Source: a virus. Taken from it: a DNA stretch of 27,735 nt. This document shows positions 1-7,012 of the stretch, in pieces. The notes beneath the pieces were generated by a model. That model was not told the origin of the DNA. It did no database searches and saw only the letters and a list, made by a program, of their open reading frames with translations. The position numbers and the translations under genes are program-made. Where the stretch lies: positions 1 through 27,735 of the IMG/VR virus record IMGVR_UViG_3300043449_001735, one strand, 5' to 3'. Positions within the stretch are counted from its first letter, which is position 1. Each line of letters begins with the position of its first letter.

Positions 1-139
1 CCGTCACCCGTCACCCGTCACCCGTCACCCGTCACCCGTCACCCGTCACCCGTCACCCGTCACCCGTCACCCGTCACCCGGAGCCCGGAGCCCGGAGCCC
101 GGCCAGCGGTGAGGCGGTGAGGCGGTGAGGCGGTGAGGC
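1..139. repeat. Three adjacent short tandem-repeat arrays
   Basis: Eleven head-to-tail copies of the 7-mer CCGTCAC (1-77) run into three copies of the 7-mer CCGGAGC (78-98). After a 9-base gap come four copies of the 8-mer GGTGAGGC (108-139). The copies are perfect. No reading frame with recognisable coding character crosses them. They could be slippage-generated noise, an iteron-like protein-binding array, or the edge of the mobile element. The window begins inside the first array, so its full length is unknown. Confidence 0.9.
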
Positions 140-265: not shown

Positions 266-294
266 TTGACCCGTTGTGGCCGATCGGTTACAAT
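266..294 (+). promoter_or_regulatory. Promoter P1 with operator O1 (leaderless gene)
   Basis: The -35 box TTGACC (266-271) and -10 box TACAAT (289-294) are separated by exactly 17 bp. The 20-bp near-palindrome TTGTGGCCGATCGGTTACAA (274-293) fills the spacer and most of the -10 box, so a bound protein would block polymerase. Transcription should begin about base 301, which is the A of the ATG, so the mRNA is probably leaderless. The same dyad, in the same phase, recurs at 1652, 3123, 5545 and (variant) 5255. Confidence 0.8.
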
Positions 295-300
295 GCCAGC

Positions 301-873
301 ATGAACACGAACGAACACAAGCGGCGCGCGGCTGAGCTCGGCCTGGAATGGTCGGCCGTGCTGGCGTTGTATCGTGAGGCTCGCCAACTCGAATCGCAGG
401 AAGTCGAGCGGGTCGCAGCGTTCCGGCGCGACGCCGCCCGCGGCCAGTCCGGTGACGCTCACGCGGGCCGGTTCAAGGGCCGGCACCGGGCCGCGTTCGC
501 GGGCGGTGACGCTACCTATATCGCCGGGCTCGACGTCGTGGCCGCGGATCGCGGCCTCACCGCCGACGAGTTGTATGACGAGCTGGCCGCCGGCGCCGCC
601 GGGCTCCGGCCGGCCGATGAACTCATGGCCGAGATCATTGACCGCGCCGCCGCGGCCGCCGCGCCCGCAGACGATTCCGCCGACATGGTTCCGCTCGTGG
701 CCGCGGCCGCGGCCGCCGACATTACCGAACAATGGCTGCGCCAACTCGTGAAGGCCGGCCGCATCCGCGGCCGGAAGGCCGGCCGGAATTGGCTCGTGTC
801 ATCCGCCGACGTCGCATTTTTCACCCGCCACCCGACCGCCGGCCGGCCGCGCCGTGAGGCCGCACCTTTCTAG
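301..873 (+). CDS. HTH DNA-binding regulator, leaderless mRNA
   Basis: A 190-residue protein. Residues 130-175 form a helix-turn-helix of the excisionase/MerR-like (HTH_17) kind, with EQWLRQLVKAGRIRGRKAGRNWLV as the recognition-helix and wing region in abbreviated form WLRQLVKAGRIRG. The same pattern (WxRxLVxxGxxxG, then GRPR) appears in the 72-residue protein at 5283, so the two are probably related. The N-terminal 100 residues are helical and unrecognised, and an Ala-rich linker joins the halves. The start at 301 is chosen over an upstream in-frame start at 133 because promoter P1 ends seven bases before this ATG. The gene is first in the early block and sits under operator O1, consistent with an autoregulated repressor or activator. 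That role is inferred. Confidence 0.72.
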   Translation: MNTNEHKRRAAELGLEWSAVLALYREARQLESQEVERVAAFRRDAARGQSGDAHAGRFKGRHRAAFAGGDATYIAGLDVVAADRGLTADELYDELAAGAAGLRPADELMAEIIDRAAAAAAPADDSADMVPLVAAAAAADITEQWLRQLVKAGRIRGRKAGRNWLVSSADVAFFTRHPTAGRPRREAAPF

Positions 874-875
874 AC

Positions 876-896
876 TTATCCCCTATCGCCCACAAT
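876..896 (+). promoter_or_regulatory. Candidate sixth operator/promoter
   Basis: TTATCCCCTATCGCCCACAA (876-895) matches 12 of the 14 conserved positions of the O1-O5 family (TTRTnnCCGAnnGGnnAYAA). It ends one base before the end of a possible -10 box CACAAT (891-896), in the same phase as the others. The -35 box at the 17-bp position is poor (TTCTAG). It lies in the 44-bp gap between the first HTH gene and the gene at 918. It could be a weak promoter, a repressor side-site or chance. Confidence 0.4.
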
Positions 897-917
897 CCAC
901 CAACGGAGCCCGCGAAA

Positions 918-1175
918 ATGACGCTCGCCCAATTCGCTCGCCTGGCCGCCGAACTATCGGCCGCCCGCCCGGCCGCCCGCCGTGCTTTTGAATTCATGGC
1001 CGCTGGCGACTTGGCCGCGGCCGCCGACGCGGCCGGCGGCCGCTATTCGGACGATTGGTGGACGGCCGAATTTTTCGTCCGTCGCGTGAGCGACCACGGC
1101 GCGACCGACGCGCCCCGGTTCACGCCCGCCGCGCCCGCCCGCCGGGCGCCCGTGCTTCCAATGTTTGACGATTGA
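918..1175 (+). CDS. Small Ala-rich orphan protein
   Basis: An 85-residue acidic/Ala-rich protein of unknown function. A CGGAG Shine-Dalgarno precedes the ATG by about 10 bases. Residues 1-40 look helical. The middle holds the aromatic segment YSDDWWTAEFFVRR and the end is Pro/Arg-rich. No family is recognised. It lies 44 bases after the first HTH gene, possibly behind its own weak promoter with an operator-like site. Codon use is the same GCC/GGC/CGC-rich pattern as its neighbours, supporting a real gene. Confidence 0.6.
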   Translation: MTLAQFARLAAELSAARPAARRAFEFMAAGDLAAAADAAGGRYSDDWWTAEFFVRRVSDHGATDAPRFTPAAPARRAPVLPMFDD

Positions 1176-1250
1176 CAACGCACGCCCCCCATACAACCCG
1201 ACACGGCCGCGGGAAACCGGCCGCCGACGATTGACCCCGGAGCCTTGACC

Positions 1251-1634
1251 ATGCCCACCCCCGCCACCGCCTACCGAATCATCCGCCACCGCGACCGCCG
1301 CGAGGGGGTATGGTTCGACGTTGAAAGCCTAGACGCCGACGGCCGCCGCGCGACCGTCGCCACGCTCGACACTCGCGCCGAGGCTCGCGACCTCGTGCGC
1401 CGGTTGGAGATGCACGCCGCCCGCCACGCGGCCGCCGTCCGCAGCCTGGCCGAGTTTCGCGACACGGCCGCCCGGTTGCAGGACAAGCGCCGCGCCATCG
1501 CCAACGCGGGCGGCCCGCTGGCCTGGCTTGGCTTCCGCGACTGCGGCGCCTACTGCGCACGCCAGCTCTGCTACCAGCGCGGCCGCGCCGCCGCCAAGAT
1601 TCGAGCGGCCCGCGCCGCCCTGCGGAATTTTTGA
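1251..1634 (+). CDS. Small basic orphan protein
   Basis: A 127-residue, Arg/Ala-rich protein with no recognised family. The first 45 residues look like a beta-rich module (YRIIRHRDRREGVWFDVESL). Residues 45-90 form an amphipathic helix with heptad-like spacing and could be a coiled coil. The C-terminus has three cysteines near CGAYCARQLCYQRGR. The ATG at 1251 is preferred to an in-frame TTG at 1245 because GGAG (1239-1242) is 8 bases upstream of it. The gene ends 9 bases before the -35 box of promoter P2. A DNA- or RNA-binding role would fit the basic C-terminus, but this is only a guess. Confidence 0.6.
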   Translation: MPTPATAYRIIRHRDRREGVWFDVESLDADGRRATVATLDTRAEARDLVRRLEMHAARHAAAVRSLAEFRDTAARLQDKRRAIANAGGPLAWLGFRDCGAYCARQLCYQRGRAAAKIRAARAALRNF

Positions 1635-1643
1635 TTGACCCCC

Positions 1644-1672
1644 TTGCCCCTTTGTTGCCGATCGGATACAAC
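1644..1672 (+). promoter_or_regulatory. Promoter P2 with operator O2
   Basis: The -35 TTGCCC (1644-1649) and -10 TACAAC (1667-1672) have a 17-bp spacer. The dyad TTGTTGCCGATCGGATACAA (1652-1671) overlaps spacer and -10 exactly as in P1. It drives the ardC-like gene at 1723 through a leader of about 45 bases that contains a hairpin. Confidence 0.78.
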
Positions 1673-1681
1673 TACCCCAAC

Positions 1682-1698
1682 GCGGCCACGATGGCCGC
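1682..1698 (+). promoter_or_regulatory. 5'-leader hairpin, copy 1
   Basis: GCGGCCACGATGGCCGC is a perfect 7-bp stem with a CGA loop in the untranslated leader between promoter P2 and the AGGAG ribosome site of the gene at 1723. An identical 17-base hairpin occurs at 3153-3169 at the same place relative to promoter P3. The match continues for about 50 bases including the operator, so the regulatory unit is duplicated. Confidence 0.7.
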
Positions 1699-1722
1699 AC
1701 AACCTCAGAAGGAGCCCCAACC

Positions 1723-2682
1723 ATGCCCGCCAAGAAGACCACCACCGCCGCCCGCCCCGACGTCTACCAGACGGTTACCGACGCGATCGTCGCCCGGCTC
1801 GAATCCGGCCAGCTTCCCCCGTGGCGCCAGCCGTGGGCAGCCGGCCACGCCGCCGGCCCCGTCTCCCGCCCGCTGCGGCACAACGGCACGCCTTACCAGG
1901 GCGTGAATATCCTCTGGCTCTGGATGGCCGCCGAGGCCCACGGCTACGGGAACCCCTACTGGCTCACCTTCAACCAGGCCCGCGACGCGGGCGGCACCGT
2001 CCGCAAGGGTGAGCGGTGCACGCACGTCGTGTTTGCGTCCACGTTCGAGAAGCGCGAAACCGGCCCCGATGGCACGGTCTCGAAGCAGCGTATACCGTTC
2101 CTGAAAACCTATGCCGTCTTCAACGCCGCGCAGTGTGACGGCCTGCCCGCCCACTACTACCAGCCGGCCACCGTGCCGGCCGTTCCGGTTGACCCGCTGC
2201 CGGCCGTGCTCGACTTCGCCCGGCACACCGGCGCCGACATCCGCGAAGGCGGCGCCCGCGCCTACTACTCCCCTAGTGGCGACTTCGTGCAGATGCCCCC
2301 CGCAACCACGTTCGAGAGCCCCGAGGCGCACGCCGGCACGCTGACGCACGAACTCGCCCACTGGACGGGCGCGGCCGCCCGCCTGGCTCGTGACTTCTCC
2401 GGCCGATTCGGTTCCGAGGCTTACGCCGCCGAGGAGCTGGTAGCCGAACTCGCGGCCGCGTTCCTCGCGGCCGATCTCGGATTCGAGCCCCAGCCCCGCG
2501 ACGATCACGCCGCCTACCTGGCGTCGTGGCTCCGCGTGATGAAGGCCGACAAGCGCGCCATTTTCACCGCCGCCAGCGCGGCCAGCCGTGCCGCCGCCTA
2601 CTTGCACTCGCTGCAGCCGGGCGGCGCCCAGGTTGGCGACGAGGAGCCCGAAGCCACCGAGGCCGATCCCGTCGCCGCCTGA
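1723..2682 (+). CDS. ardC: ArdC-like antirestriction protein
   Basis: A 319-residue protein with the architecture of ArdC family antirestriction proteins. An N-terminal ssDNA-binding domain (about 10-140; DVYQTVTDAIVARLESG, PPWRQPW, NILWLWMAA, YGNPYWLTFNQA and the KGE/FLKTYAVFNAAQ strand) is followed by a C-terminal zincin-type metallopeptidase domain. Zinc ligands are visible in HELAHWTG (H209, E210, H213), with a downstream acidic helix AYAAEELVAELAAAF supplying a third ligand candidate. Length is typical of the family. ArdC-type proteins protect incoming DNA from host restriction, which suits expression from an early promoter with a strong AGGAG site. It is followed by a GC-rich hairpin (2701-2724). 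The antirestriction role here is by family only. Confidence 0.88.
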   Translation: MPAKKTTTAARPDVYQTVTDAIVARLESGQLPPWRQPWAAGHAAGPVSRPLRHNGTPYQGVNILWLWMAAEAHGYGNPYWLTFNQARDAGGTVRKGERCTHVVFASTFEKRETGPDGTVSKQRIPFLKTYAVFNAAQCDGLPAHYYQPATVPAVPVDPLPAVLDFARHTGADIREGGARAYYSPSGDFVQMPPATTFESPEAHAGTLTHELAHWTGAAARLARDFSGRFGSEAYAAEELVAELAAAFLAADLGFEPQPRDDHAAYLASWLRVMKADKRAIFTAASAASRAAAYLHSLQPGGAQVGDEEPEATEADPVAA

Positions 2683-2700
2683 GCCCGGCCGCCCCGGCCA

Positions 2701-2724
2701 CCCCTGCCGCCCGCCGGGCAGGGG
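2701..2724 (+). terminator. Terminator-like hairpin after ardC
   Basis: CCCCTGCC and GGCAGGGG form a perfect 8-bp stem around an 8-base loop, 19 bases after the ardC stop codon. It is followed by AAACC and then another GC palindrome rather than by a T-tract. It may attenuate, pause or protect the 3' end rather than terminate. In DNA this GC-rich some stems arise by chance, so confidence is moderate. Confidence 0.4.
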
Positions 2725-2787
2725 AAACCGGGCCGGCCCGGCAGACCGCCGGCCACCGCGACCCACCACCACGAGGAGCCCGAAACC

Positions 2788-3084
2788 ATGACCCGCCAAA
2801 CCATCGCCGCCACCGTCCGCGGCATCGAGTTTCGAATTCGCGCCGACTGGAGCGACCCCGCCGCCCCCGTCCAAATCGAGGCCGAGGACGGCTATGCCTG
2901 GCACGACACCGGAGACACGGTAGGCGATTGGAGCGAAGACACGCCCGCGATCGACGCCCCCCACCTACCGAGCCCGGCCGCGGCCGCCGCGATCGCCGGC
3001 ATCGTACAAGTCTTCTTCTGCCATCCCCGCTGGCCCGCACTGTCCGCGGGCGCGATTGTGGCCGCGGCCACCGTCGAGGATTGA
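2788..3084 (+). CDS. Small acidic orphan protein
   Basis: A 98-residue protein with no recognised family. A beta-rich first half (TIAATVRGIEFRIRADWSDP, then IEAEDGYAWHDTGDTV) is followed by an Ala-rich helix and a hydrophobic stretch around IAGIVQVFFCHPRWPALSAGAIVAAATV, which may be a buried core or a weak membrane segment. The ribosome site AGGAGCCCGAAACC directly upstream is the stereotyped early-block cassette also seen before 3191 and 4369. It lies between ardC and promoter P3 and presumably shares the ardC transcript. Confidence 0.6.
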   Translation: MTRQTIAATVRGIEFRIRADWSDPAAPVQIEAEDGYAWHDTGDTVGDWSEDTPAIDAPHLPSPAAAAAIAGIVQVFFCHPRWPALSAGAIVAAATVED

Positions 3085-3114
3085 CGCCCCCGCCCCGGAA
3101 TTTTCCCTCCCCCC

Positions 3115-3143
3115 CTGCCGGCTTGTTGCCGATAGGATACAAC
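3115..3143 (+). promoter_or_regulatory. Promoter P3 with operator O3
   Basis: A weak -35 CTGCCG (3115-3120), a 17-bp spacer and -10 TACAAC (3138-3143). The dyad TTGTTGCCGATAGGATACAA (3123-3142) differs from O2 at one central base. It drives the gene at 3191 through a leader holding the second copy of the 17-base hairpin. Confidence 0.75.
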
Positions 3144-3152
3144 TAGAGAAAC

Positions 3153-3169
3153 GCGGCCACGATGGCCGC
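3153..3169 (+). promoter_or_regulatory. 5'-leader hairpin, copy 2
   Basis: Identical in sequence and relative position to the hairpin at 1682-1698 (GCGGCCACGATGGCCGC). It lies between promoter P3 and the CAGGAG ribosome site of the gene at 3191. Conservation of the stem in two leaders, where surrounding bases differ, suggests a function at RNA level or a second protein-binding dyad. Confidence 0.68.
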
Positions 3170-3190
3170 CCAACCCAGGAGCCCGAAACC

Positions 3191-3808
3191 ATGAACCCTC
3201 GCCGATTCAAGACGCTTGGCATCACCGACGAGCCCGGCTACTGCGACCTTTGCGGCACGCGGTGCCCACGCCGCCGGGTCGCCGTCGAGTTGATCGACGC
3301 AGACGGCAGCACGACCGGAGACGTGCAGCTTTGGGGCGTGGTCTGCGCCGCCGAGGCCCGGCACGGCCGGCGGGATAGCACGCTGGCCCGGATGCTGCGA
3401 GCCGAGGCCGAGGAGGCCGGCGCCTACGCCGGCCCGGTGCCGGCCCGCCGCCGCCGGGCGGCCGCCACGCCCCGCCGGCAGACCCGGAAGGAGGCCGCCC
3501 GGCTCGCCGCCATCGCGGCCGCCGACGCCCGCGCCGTCTGGTTCCGCACCGCTTCCCCGGTGCCGGCCGAACTGGCCGCCGCCGAGGCTGACGGCCGGCC
3601 GTGGCTCGCCGCCGGGGCTCGCTACCTGGCCGCCGGCCACCCCCGCCACGCCGGCCACGGCTACCAGCACGAAGACGGCCGGCGCGCGATCGTGAACGCC
3701 AACGACCCCGCCGACGTGGCGCGGTTCGAGCGGCACGGCTTCCGGCCCGTGGCCGGGATCGCCCTTGCCAACTGGCCGACGCCGGCCGAGGAGCTCGCGA
3801 CCGCGTGA
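3191..3808 (+). CDS. Orphan protein with N-terminal Cys cluster
   Basis: A 205-residue protein. Near the N-terminus CDLCGTRCPRRR (C18, C21, C25) plus C52 and H58 could bind zinc, as in a treble-clef or ribbon fold. A basic, Arg/Ala-rich linker (about 80-110) follows. The C-terminal half contains the segment HGYQHEDGRRAIVNANDPADVARFERHGF, which resembles nothing I can name. The ATG at 3191 is preferred over an open frame reaching back to 3056 because it has an AGGAG site and lies downstream of promoter P3. Nucleic-acid binding is plausible from the Cys cluster and basic linker, but unproven. Confidence 0.62.
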   Translation: MNPRRFKTLGITDEPGYCDLCGTRCPRRRVAVELIDADGSTTGDVQLWGVVCAAEARHGRRDSTLARMLRAEAEEAGAYAGPVPARRRRAAATPRRQTRKEAARLAAIAAADARAVWFRTASPVPAELAAAEADGRPWLAAGARYLAAGHPRHAGHGYQHEDGRRAIVNANDPADVARFERHGFRPVAGIALANWPTPAEELATA

Positions 3809-3828
3809 GCCGGGGCCGCCCCCGCCCC

Positions 3829-3847
3829 TCCCGGCACGCCGCCGGGA
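3829..3847 (+). other. Intergenic GC hairpin
   Basis: TCCCGGC-ACGCC-GCCGGGA is a 7-bp perfect stem, 20 bases after the stop of the gene ending at 3808. No T-tract follows. It could act as a weak attenuator or RNA-stability element, or be a by-product of the GGCC/CCGG-rich composition. Confidence 0.3.
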
Positions 3848-3902
3848 TGGACGGGGCCGGCGCCGCCGACCCGTTGACCATCACCCCCAGGAGCTCGACA
3901 CC

Positions 3903-4265
3903 ATGACCACCACCACGCCCGCCACCGAATACGCCGCCGCCGTGAGGTACGCCGCTGATTCAGTCCTCGCGCAGATCGAAGACGGCCACGCCCCGCACCG
4001 GCAATACAACAGCCAGAGCGCCGACGGCCAGTATCGGCCCAGCGTGCGCGTCTACTTCGCTGACCTCCCCTGCCGGGCTCACCCCACGATCCCGGCCGGG
4101 GCCGTGCGTGTCGCGGTTGACCTCGACCCGACCCGCGGCCGCCGGCCGGTGCACGAGGCCCGCGTCTACTTCGAGCCCCACGACTACGACGCCGGCCAGG
4201 CGGCCGCCGACATCGCCGCCGCCGTGCTCGACATGATCGACAACACGGCCGAATACGCCCGCTGA
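3903..4265 (+). CDS. Small orphan protein, early block
   Basis: A 120-residue protein with no recognised family. It shows an N-terminal helix (YAAAVRYAADSVLAQIEDG), a beta-strand-rich centre (SVRVYFADLPCR, AVRVAVDLDP, EARVYFEPHDY) and a C-terminal amphipathic helix (AAADIAAAVLDMIDNTAEY). The regular alpha-beta-alpha pattern argues for a real folded protein. The CAGGAG site is 12 bases upstream of the ATG. An earlier in-frame start at 3765 lies inside the previous gene and is not supported. Confidence 0.6.
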   Translation: MTTTTPATEYAAAVRYAADSVLAQIEDGHAPHRQYNSQSADGQYRPSVRVYFADLPCRAHPTIPAGAVRVAVDLDPTRGRRPVHEARVYFEPHDYDAGQAAADIAAAVLDMIDNTAEYAR

Positions 4266-4368
4266 CCCGGCCGCCCCCACGCCGGCCACGGCCACCGCCG
4301 CGGCCGGCCAGGGGGATGCCGGCGACAACCGCCGACCACGCCCGCCACCACGCCAGGAGCCCGACACC

Positions 4369-4503
4369 ATGACCACCACGCCCACCGACCGCCGCCCGAT
4401 CCGCGCCGGATACGCCTACCTCGAAATCGCCGGCCAGCCCGCCCGCCGCAGGCGGCGCGGCCTGCTCGCCCGGCTCGCCGCCTGGCTCGCCGGCCGCCGA
4501 TAG
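4369..4503 (+). CDS. 44-residue basic peptide
   Basis: A very short gene with the same ribosome cassette (CAGGAGCCCGACACC) as its neighbours, immediately before the ATG. The product starts MTTTPTDRRPIRAGYAYLEI, then has a run of five arginines and an amphipathic/hydrophobic end (GLLARLAAWLAGRR). This could be a membrane-active or nucleic-acid-binding peptide. The first residues resemble the start of the preceding protein (MTTTTPATEYAA), hinting at duplication of the translation-start region. Support is the ribosome site and spacing only. Confidence 0.45.
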   Translation: MTTTPTDRRPIRAGYAYLEIAGQPARRRRRGLLARLAAWLAGRR

Positions 4504-4611
4504 CCCACGCCGCCCCCGCCCCCGCCGGCGCCCGAGGCCGGCGGCACCGGGGCCGACGTGGCGACTTCCGCCACGCACGCACGCCCGCCAACAACCCGGA
4601 GAACCCAGCCA

Positions 4612-4896
4612 ATGCCCGCCTACGCCGTCCAGCAGATCGACCACGCCGCCTACCCCCGCCGCTGCCGGAGGATGAGCGACTCGGAATTGCACTTCACAAT
4701 CTCAGACGCCCGCGCCGCCCTGGCCGCCATGCCGGACGGGCCGAAGGCCGGCTACTACGCCGACGAAATCTGCTACTGCGCCGACGAGCTCGAACGCCGC
4801 CGCCGGGGCGGCCGGCGGGACACCACGCACGCCGCTCGCGTGCACGCCGCCCTGGAGGCCGAGGCCGCCGCCCTGGCCGAACTGCTCGACCAGTAG
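4612..4896 (+). CDS. Small conserved-looking phage orphan
   Basis: A 94-residue protein. The central segment ELHFTISDARAALAAMPDG followed by KAGYYADEICYCADELERRRR is a pattern I associate with small proteins of unknown function in phages and plasmids: a helix-hairpin with a conserved PKAGYY(x)DE core. The C-terminus is a long Ala/Glu helix. The ATG at 4612 follows GGAG by about 10 bases. An upstream in-frame start at 4558 has no ribosome site. No function can be assigned. Confidence 0.65.
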   Translation: MPAYAVQQIDHAAYPRRCRRMSDSELHFTISDARAALAAMPDGPKAGYYADEICYCADELERRRRGGRRDTTHAARVHAALEAEAAALAELLDQ

Positions 4897-4932
4897 CCCC
4901 ACGCACGCCAACCCCAAAGGAGAACGCCACCC

Positions 4933-5226
4933 ATGCCCACGCCCGCCCCGCAGCTTGACCTATTCGACAAAGGCCCGCCCACGCCCCCGCCGGCCAAATG
5001 GATCGGCCACCGTGGCCCGTGGGGCCGGAGCCTAACGTGGACGCGGCCGGATATGCCGCGGATCATCGTGCGCCATTGCGGCCACGGCACAGCGCTCTAC
5101 CCCTACTACATCACGATCGGCGCCAGCCTCACGCCGGCCAGCCCAGGCCTATTCCGCACGCTGGCAGAGTGCCAGGCCGCCGCTGCCCGGCTCCACCAAG
5201 ACCTCTCACGCACGCCCGCACCATGA
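4933..5226 (+). CDS. Small protein with clamp-binding-like QLDLF motif
   Basis: A 97-residue protein with a strong AAAGGAG site. Residues 7-11, near the exposed N-terminus, read QLDLF. This matches the known consensus (QLxLF, with S or D at the third position) by which polymerases, repair proteins and some phage proteins bind the bacterial beta sliding clamp. The rest (GHRGPWGRSLTWTRPDMPRI, then YITIGASLTPASPGLFRTLAECQAAAARLHQ) is a small alpha/beta domain with no recognised family. Its stop overlaps ATG 5223, an alternative start of the next gene. Recruiting or inhibiting the host clamp is an attractive hypothesis, but a five-residue motif can occur by chance. Confidence 0.6.
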   Translation: MPTPAPQLDLFDKGPPTPPPAKWIGHRGPWGRSLTWTRPDMPRIIVRHCGHGTALYPYYITIGASLTPASPGLFRTLAECQAAAARLHQDLSRTPAP

Positions 5227-5247
5227 ACGCACGCACGCCCGCCGAGG

Positions 5248-5275
5248 TTGACACTTATTCCCGACCGGGGATAAT
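5248..5275 (+). promoter_or_regulatory. Promoter P5 with variant operator O5 (leaderless gene)
   Basis: A perfect -35 TTGACA (5248-5253), a 16-bp spacer and -10 GATAAT (5270-5275). The near-palindrome TTATTCCCGACCGGGGATAA (5255-5274) sits in the same phase on the -10 box as O1-O4. It matches the O2 sequence at 14 of 20 positions, with symmetric changes in both outer half-sites (G to A, C to T). Expected transcription start is about 5282, adjacent to the ATG at 5283. Confidence 0.75.
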
Positions 5276-5282
5276 GTCTCCC

Positions 5283-5501
5283 ATGGCACCCAAAATCGAC
5301 CCCGACAAATACATGACCGTTGGCAACGCCGCCAAGCTGGCGAACGTGTCGCGCGGCTGGATGAGGCGACTCGTCCAAGGCGGCCACGTTGCCGGCGTCG
5401 AAATCGACGGCCAGACGTTTGTGCTCCGCTCCGCGGCGGAAGCCTACGCCGAAACGATCCCGCCACTCGGCCGCCCTCGTGGCGGCAAACACGGCAACTA
5501 A
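5283..5501 (+). CDS. 72-residue HTH protein (excisionase/MerR-like)
   Basis: A compact DNA-binding protein that is almost entirely one HTH_17/excisionase-like domain: MTVGNAAKLANVSRGWMRRL, then the wing VQGGHVAGVEIDGQTFVL, ending in a GRPRG tail. The C-terminal domain of the protein at 301 shows the same layout. Two starts are possible. ATG 5283 lies seven bases after the -10 box of P5 and would give a leaderless mRNA. ATG 5223, in the same frame, overlaps the previous stop (ATGA) and would add 20 residues on a read-through transcript. It may be a Cox/Xis-like or repressor protein controlling the O1-O5 operators. This is inferred from size, fold and position. Confidence 0.75.
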   Translation: MAPKIDPDKYMTVGNAAKLANVSRGWMRRLVQGGHVAGVEIDGQTFVLRSAAEAYAETIPPLGRPRGGKHGN

Positions 5502-5536
5502 AAAGGAGCCCCCACCCGCCAAGCAAACTTCAGCCC

Positions 5537-5565
5537 TTGCCCACTTGTCGCCGATAGGATAGTAT
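5537..5565 (+). promoter_or_regulatory. Promoter P4 with operator O4
   Basis: The -35 TTGCCC (5537-5542) and -10 TAGTAT (5560-5565) have a 17-bp spacer. The dyad TTGTCGCCGATAGGATAGTA (5545-5564) keeps the left arm and core, but its right arm is degenerate (AGTA instead of ACAA). The leader to the ATG at 5612 holds a 5-bp hairpin (GCCGG-ACATCA-CCGGC, 5575-5590) and an AGGAG ribosome site. Confidence 0.72.
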
Positions 5566-6526: not shown

Positions 6527-7012
6527 ATGAACACCCTCGCCCCCCTCGCCGCCGCCGGTTGCCGATTCGTCCGGCTCGCCCGTGGCGAAAAGCGCCCGCT
6601 CGGCGCCGCCTGGCAGCACCGCAGCGTCAACGACTTGACATATGTCAAGGAGTGGCTCGCCGCCCGCTCGAACGTCGGCATCCTGCTCGGCCCCGCCTCC
6701 GGCGTGGTGGACGTTGAATATGACGAGCCGGAAGGCCGCGACCAGCTCGCCGCGTTCGGGGTGCTCGACATACCCACGCCCACCTGGCGGTCGGCCCGTG
6801 GCGAGCACCGGCTATTCCGTTGGGAGCCGTGGATGCCGGCCGCCGCCGCCGTCAAGGCCGAGGCTATCGAAATACGGATCGGCGGCCGGGCCGCGCAATC
6901 CGTGCTCCCGCCCAGCCGCCACCCGACCGGCGCGGCCTACGAATGGCTGACCGACCCCGCGACGCCTATCGCCGGGTTCCCCGCCCAACTGCTCGCCGGG
7001 GTGCCCGCATGA
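6527..7012 (+). CDS. Stand-alone primase-polymerase (prim-pol) domain
   Basis: A 161-residue protein with the motifs of the bifunctional DNA primase/polymerase N-terminal domain (archaeo-eukaryotic primase superfamily). These are a lysine loop (RGEKRPLGAAWQH), NVGILLGPASG leading into the metal-binding strand VVDVEYD (D-x-E in place of the usual D-x-D), GEHRLFRW carrying the conserved His, and a closing IEIRIGGR with SVLPPSRHPTGAAYEW. These proteins usually continue into a helicase or regulatory domain, but this one ends after the catalytic core. It would synthesise primers or short DNA during phage replication, if active. Its stop overlaps the next start (ATGA). A perfect 16-bp palindrome lies inside the gene at 6634-6649. 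Confidence 0.82.
   Translation: MNTLAPLAAAGCRFVRLARGEKRPLGAAWQHRSVNDLTYVKEWLAARSNVGILLGPASGVVDVEYDEPEGRDQLAAFGVLDIPTPTWRSARGEHRLFRWEPWMPAAAAVKAEAIEIRIGGRAAQSVLPPSRHPTGAAYEWLTDPATPIAGFPAQLLAGVPA
6634..6649. repeat. Perfect 16-bp palindrome inside the prim-pol gene
   Basis: CTTGACATATGTCAAG is fully self-complementary. It forms an A/T-rich island in a gene otherwise saturated with G/C third positions, using unusual codons here (TTG ACA TAT). It contains TTGACA on both strands, but no -10 box lies at a suitable distance. It could be an internal operator or a protein-binding site. Confidence 0.6.

Follow-up and report, generated by a model that had tools for sequence, protein, structure and literature searches.

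Which protein reads the repeated near-palindromes on the early promoters of IMG/VR virus record IMGVR_UViG_3300043449_001735? The window, meaning the whole 27,735-nucleotide stretch analyzed here (a 27.7-kb record), carries its early genes on the plus strand and capsid/protease and tape-measure genes on the minus strand. An earlier note, made from the window alone, had described five 20-bp sites on these promoters and had proposed that the promoters are repressed by one or both of two helix-turn-helix (HTH) proteins encoded here, namely, protein 301 (190 amino acids [aa]; positions 301 to 873) and protein 5283 (72 aa; positions 5283 to 5501). Sequence comparison provides good support for a family of phage-encoded operators with two-fold symmetry on early promoters: the half-sites covary symmetrically, the register relative to each promoter does not vary, and dozens of phages carry the sites at corresponding places. 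Of the two candidate proteins, only 5283 was followed by the sites in a comparison of about 40 relatives. Thus, the reader of the site family and regulator of the early genes is probably the 72-aa protein 5283 (a probability of roughly 0.74), and repression is what we infer from where the sites lie.

The five near-palindromes were found exactly where they had been placed, at 274 to 293 (site B), 1652 to 1671 (D), 3123 to 3142 (E), 5255 to 5274 (F), and 5545 to 5564 (G); all operators, promoters, and genes given with window coordinates are on the plus strand. Site B covers the promoter of gene 301 (-35 TTGACC, 266 to 271; -10 TACAAT, 289 to 294; sequence reading and consensus scan), D that of the ArdC operon (-35 TTGCCC, 1644 to 1649; -10 TACAAC, 1667 to 1672), and E that of the 3191 operon (-35 CTGCCG, 3115 to 3120; -10 TACAAC, 3138 to 3143). 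Site F covers the promoter of gene 5283 (-35 TTGACA, 5248 to 5253; -10 GATAAT, 5270 to 5275; consensus scan), and G covers that of the replication operon (-35 TTGCCC, 5537 to 5542; -10 TAGTAT, 5560 to 5565). When read from the window sequence, the last base of every copy coincided with base 5 of the -10 hexamer, and the spacers measured 17, 17, 17, 16 (site F), and 17 bp, in agreement with the earlier note. The proposed form TTRTnnCCGAnnGGnnAYAA fits B, D, E, and F exactly but is slightly too strict, since two outer bases in the right arm of G deviate (AGTA instead of AYAA). When up to 3 mismatches to this form were allowed, 15 strand hits were obtained in the window versus 3.2 expected, and none of 100 shuffled sequences reached 15.

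A scan with a position matrix was also carried out. The matrix was trained on 30 sites from other phages, with the window and its closest relatives excluded, and it gave scores of 31.6 (D), 30.7 (E), 25.7 (G), and 25.5 (B); shuffling the window 100 times yielded at most 15.1. Two overlooked sites were added, namely, site A (TTGTGGCCGGCCGGCCAGAA; 213 to 232; score, 10.4), which precedes the 301 promoter, and site C (876 to 895; score, 8.1), immediately past the 301 stop and before gene 918. Site F scored 7.3, a level at which 0.4 sites are expected by chance, and was accepted because of its conserved place rather than its score. Sites A, C, and F are too weak to stand alone and are supported by a placement that is conserved in relatives.

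Relatives were gathered from IMG/VR with the 301, 5283, and ArdC proteins as queries and then by alignment-based searches, and the site family was present in more than 60 related contigs. Site B precedes the 301 homolog and C directly follows its stop, where it is strong in relatives; F precedes the 5283 homolog, and G is kept right after it in nearly all relatives. Sites also occur in relatives at the place of A. In five records of 41.8 to 45.4 kb, all hits scoring at least 20 were confined to one early stretch of no more than 5.2 kb, as scanned with matrices that included each phage's own sites. The automatic site picker was biased toward the CCGATCGG core, so that claims of absence also rest on reading the flanks; the C sites in six loci and in L034 were set by hand, and poor picks were dropped.

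In a set of 93 distinct sites, the two halves of a site matched more often than when the right halves were re-dealt; at three arm positions, 0 to 1 of 2,000 shuffles reached the observed level. Left-right matches numbered 214 versus 172 after shuffling for class B, 176 versus 145 for C, and 123 versus 114 for G. For class F, 85 matches versus 84.5 gave no symmetry signal, and the mean site score was 9.8, compared with 24.9 (B), 23.0 (C), and 25.6 (G). Thus, the symmetric change of the outer half-sites that had been pointed out in the 5255 copy is real in the window but counts for little as evidence, since across relatives this class is no more symmetric than chance. The arms vary among phages, yet they are concordant within one phage. 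Most phages carry TTGT-CCGATCGG-ACAA; GTATTG-CGATCG arms were found in L013, L019, L021, L028, and L035, and ATTCTG-CCGATCGG arms in L006 and L023.

For a protein that reads these sites, divergence among phages should parallel that of the sites. This comparison used operators B and C, located on either side of gene 301 at a distance of 4 kb from 5283. Their divergence followed that of protein 5283 closely (Mantel r = 0.86, n = 25, 0 of 3,000 permutations; 0.85 when corrected for Prim-Pol), and the correlation with protein 301 was not significant (r = 0.15; 0.13 for its HTH). The values for Prim-Pol (r = 0.23) and for p4612, encoded next to 5283 (r = 0.07), were also low, and that for p5612 (r = 0.54, n = 17) fell to 0.06 once corrected for 5283. 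In 11 phages fetched later, protein 301 gave an uncorrected r of 0.63, so that the partial values matter there: 0.48 for 5283 given 301 (p = 4e-4) and -0.13 for 301 given 5283. Over all 36 phages, r was 0.73 for 5283, with partial values of 0.72 for 5283 given 301 and 0.00 for 301 given 5283.

Natural swaps gave a similar picture. In 26 pairs of phages in which the 301 proteins were 75 to 90% identical and the 5283 proteins 39 to 43% identical, 10.3 of the 20 operator positions differed for B and 11.7 for C. In 15 pairs with the reverse arrangement (301, 59 to 63%; 5283, 94 to 97%), the corresponding figures were 5.0 (B) and 1.9 (C). Protein 301 as the specificity determinant was rejected on the Mantel tests, these pairs, and the partial correlations. 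Six contigs (L161, L164, L165, L168, L171, and L173) encode a 301 protein, with no 5283 homolog detected on the contig and no such sites around 301; they represent about three lineages and may be incomplete. A contig from a metagenome-assembled genome (MAG), L070, likewise lacks the sites. In five of these 301-only phages (L161, L165, L168, L171, and L173), ACCCCCGAACGTGGAAAC stands just before genes in place of the operator and could be a leader or the site of another regulator.

Within 5283, most phages have Arg at residue 28 of the recognition helix, and type-2 phages (e.g., L013) and L108 have Leu there. Of 190 half-sites paired with Arg28, 175 had C as the outer core base, versus 9 of 30 with Leu28, counts in which the half-sites are not independent; this hints at a contact between residue 28 and the outer core base.

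The geometry of the promoters bears on what such a protein would do. A -35 match of at least 4 of 6 was found at 28 of 30 B, 17 of 17 F, and 17 of 21 G sites versus 8.7% at random, and the best-scoring spacer was 16 to 17 bp in most of them (16 to 18 bp were tried). Since the sites cover promoters with ordinary spacers of 16 to 17 bp and near-consensus hexamers, repression is the simplest reading for B, D, E, F, and G. Protein 5283 would bind as two subunits to the 20-bp inverted repeat with its CCGATCGG core. The site overlies the spacer and -10 box, so that binding would exclude RNA polymerase from the promoters of 301, the ArdC operon, the 3191 operon, and the replication operon. At its own gene, the near-consensus promoter and the weaker, lopsided site would fit mild autorepression. 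In L009, L022, L029 to L033, L039, and the window, the operator past the 301 stop is retained while its -35 box is poor or lost; by analogy with stoperators, such C sites may act as transcription roadblocks.

Other readers of the sites were weighed against protein 5283. The HTH domains of 301 and 5283 match each other across phages (tblastn E values down to 7e-9), and both proteins carry a GRPR-type tail, so the two might compete for the same sites as Cro and CI do, with 5283 dominating specificity. However, the 301 HTH hardly varies between operator types, the partial correlation of 301 with the operators is zero, and 301 persists in the six contigs without sites; competition is therefore unlikely, although it is the least unlikely of the alternatives. 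A lower probability is given to 5283 being a MerR-like activator that works inside the spacer, an idea suggested by its fold, which is related to that of MerR proteins, and by the position of the site between the -35 and -10 boxes. Classical MerR promoters have over-long spacers of 19 to 20 bp. The spacers here are mostly 16 to 17 bp, and the strongest promoter bears the weakest site.

It is very improbable that the sites are bound by the divergent regulator found upstream of the integrase in relatives, which is either of HTH_3 type or an 80-aa HTH protein. Its position beside the integrase is the usual one for a lysogeny repressor, but near-identical 80-aa proteins are shared by L021 and L030/L031 despite strongly different operators, type-1 (window-type) operators co-occur with both kinds of regulator, and full records show no strong site near the regulator gene. 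These regulators were rejected as site readers. The slightest chance is given to a host regulator or a special spacer-reading sigma factor; such a factor would account for a motif associated with promoters, but two-fold symmetry with symmetric covariation, off-promoter sites (A and half of C), and the tracking of one phage protein speak against it. The HTH_3 regulators of L009, L022, L006, L034, and L039 carry an N-terminal GGRPR/GGRPQ motif.

Several points weigh against protein 5283 as the repressor. The case is computational throughout, and direct binding, dimerization, repression, and any role of 5283 in lysogeny or immunity are all predictions. The phages are related, so that the permutation p values and the Fisher test on residue 28 overstate independence. 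L103 and L104 retain Arg28 though the outer base is lost at some of their sites. About half of the C sites have no recognizable -35 box, and thus promoter coverage does not account for every site. The regulator divergent from the integrase is also a candidate lysogeny repressor. Finally, the nearest folds of the 5283 model, BldC and Xis, bind head-to-tail direct repeats, and the model contains no dimerization helix.

The AlphaFold2 model of 5283 (mean predicted local distance difference test [pLDDT] score, 83) is a MerR-like winged helix without a coiled coil or effector domain. The recognition helix spans residues 24 to 32, and the last helix (residues 49 to 58) is followed by a low-confidence tail. 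No coiled-coil dimerization helix is seen in this model. Its nearest folds are BldC (6ama; Z = 6.7 over 53 residues) and Pukovnik Xis (4j2n; Z = 6.6), and Z scores below 8 indicate a fold shared with BldC rather than proof of kinship. Matches of 5283 to the excisionase profiles TIGR01764 (22 bits; cutoff, 28.8) and HTH_17 (21.9 bits; cutoff, 27) were both below threshold, as was that to HTH_31, and no HTH_3 match was found anywhere in the window. The G-R-P of the tail is invariant among phages and resembles an AT-hook core; as a guess, it could reach the A/T-rich arms. Genes of the 5283 type also occur as tandem pairs (L034:13959-14387 and L044:10346-10810). Protein 301 was modeled at a pLDDT of 89 as a helical N-terminal part and a C-terminal winged helix, with an HTH that is nearly invariant among phages. 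It matches a PHROG excisionase family (2.9e-7) and falls below the cutoff for Pfam HTH_17; in relatives, this excisionase-type winged helix is encoded beside a tyrosine integrase, and a role in excision is possible.

The arrangement has the features of a multi-operator phage regulon, in that a repeated site lies on early promoters and its specificity follows one phage protein. Lambda-type CI/Cro operators are symmetric and lie over early promoters in tandem triplets. The symmetric operators on early promoters found here are similar, but the sites are single and dispersed and the 5283 fold is BldC/Xis-like rather than that of lambda repressor. In the cluster A mycobacteriophages (L5 group), repressor and stoperator motif diverge together among relatives (PMC6550527), and the asymmetric stoperator is read by a two-domain monomer (PMC9283540). 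Here, too, a single phage regulator appears to serve several dispersed sites, with protein and site diverging together. Unlike the many genome-wide stoperators, however, the sites are inverted repeats, number four to seven, and have their strong members all in one early region.

BldC of Streptomyces, like 5283 a small MerR-like winged helix lacking both coiled coil and effector domain, multimerizes head to tail on direct repeats (PMC5859096). The sites predicted to be bound by 5283 are, in contrast, inverted repeats with symmetric covariation, which is the unusual point for a BldC/Xis-like protein. The fold of 5283 is also shared with winged-helix excisionases or recombination directionality factors, including Pukovnik Xis (4j2n), RdfS, lambda Xis, P2 Cox (4lhf), and Pf4 XisF4 (PMC7379572), several of which double as transcription regulators of their own phage or element. 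For the excisionase RdfS, no consensus motif was described (PMC11963761). Unlike these excisionases, 5283 has a palindromic, promoter-centered candidate regulon and is encoded near a primase gene. A limited search of open papers yielded no described repressor with this operator, and the core string retrieved only unrelated papers. The mode of regulation is known, and the protein family of 5283 and its inverted-repeat site look new.

Two alternatives stand side by side for the role of 5283 in the phage life cycle: it may be the immunity repressor, or it may turn early genes off while the divergent gene near the integrase encodes the lysogeny repressor. It is possible, though rather doubtful, that 5283, with its AT-hook-like tail and lacking a dimerization domain, reads inverted repeats as the immunity repressor for a large, so far undescribed temperate group. 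Its natural variants would then form a specificity code, with residue 28 versus the outer core base as one example, that sorts the phages into immunity groups. For phages in which no cultured member was found, a regulator was here matched to its operator purely by comparison of sequences. The result suggests that small winged-helix proteins commonly filed as excisionases may act as dedicated repressors that recognize palindromic sites. In addition, natural protein-site pairs are offered for working out DNA recognition.

Antirestriction, excisionase-like, and replication genes would share one switch. The ArdC-type antirestriction protein is encoded at 1723 to 2682 (Pfam ArdcN, 9e-39; MPTase-PolyVal, 7e-50; PHROG, 3e-93), and a Prim-Pol domain DNA primase/polymerase is encoded at 6527 to 7012, downstream of site G (Pfam, 5e-24). 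In relatives, the 301 homolog is preceded at about 0.6 to 2.5 kb by a tyrosine integrase gene, beyond which lies a small divergent regulator, so that the group is probably temperate; the window contig ends before reaching either. Scans of genome contigs named no host. One 5.7-kb contig in an alphaproteobacterial MAG encodes a 42% relative of 301, which is too thin for naming a host. Against named phages, protein 301 had no match, and only weak Prim-Pol and head-protein matches were obtained.

At the contig end of the window (1 to 139), three tandem arrays follow one another, CCGTCAC (11 copies), CCCGGAG (4 copies), and GCGGTGAG (4 copies), and relatives carry period-7 arrays of other units (e.g., GATGGTC and CTGACCG) in the same interval between integrase and 301. 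The repeat CTATCGAAATA occurs at 151 to 162 of the window and, in relatives, between integrase and 301, usually as two or three copies about 32 bp apart; it was seen upstream of 301 in L005, L006, L007, L008, L011, L012, L017, L022, L030, and L031 and is possibly an arm-type site of the integrase. Adjoining site A, the invariant element TTCTCACGTTACCAAGTGTCC (191 to 211), with the pattern TTCTCA-n-CCAAGTGTCC, might be guessed to be the attP core or a site for protein 301; among the 24 loci scanned, 23 had it ahead of the 301 homolog, once per phage.

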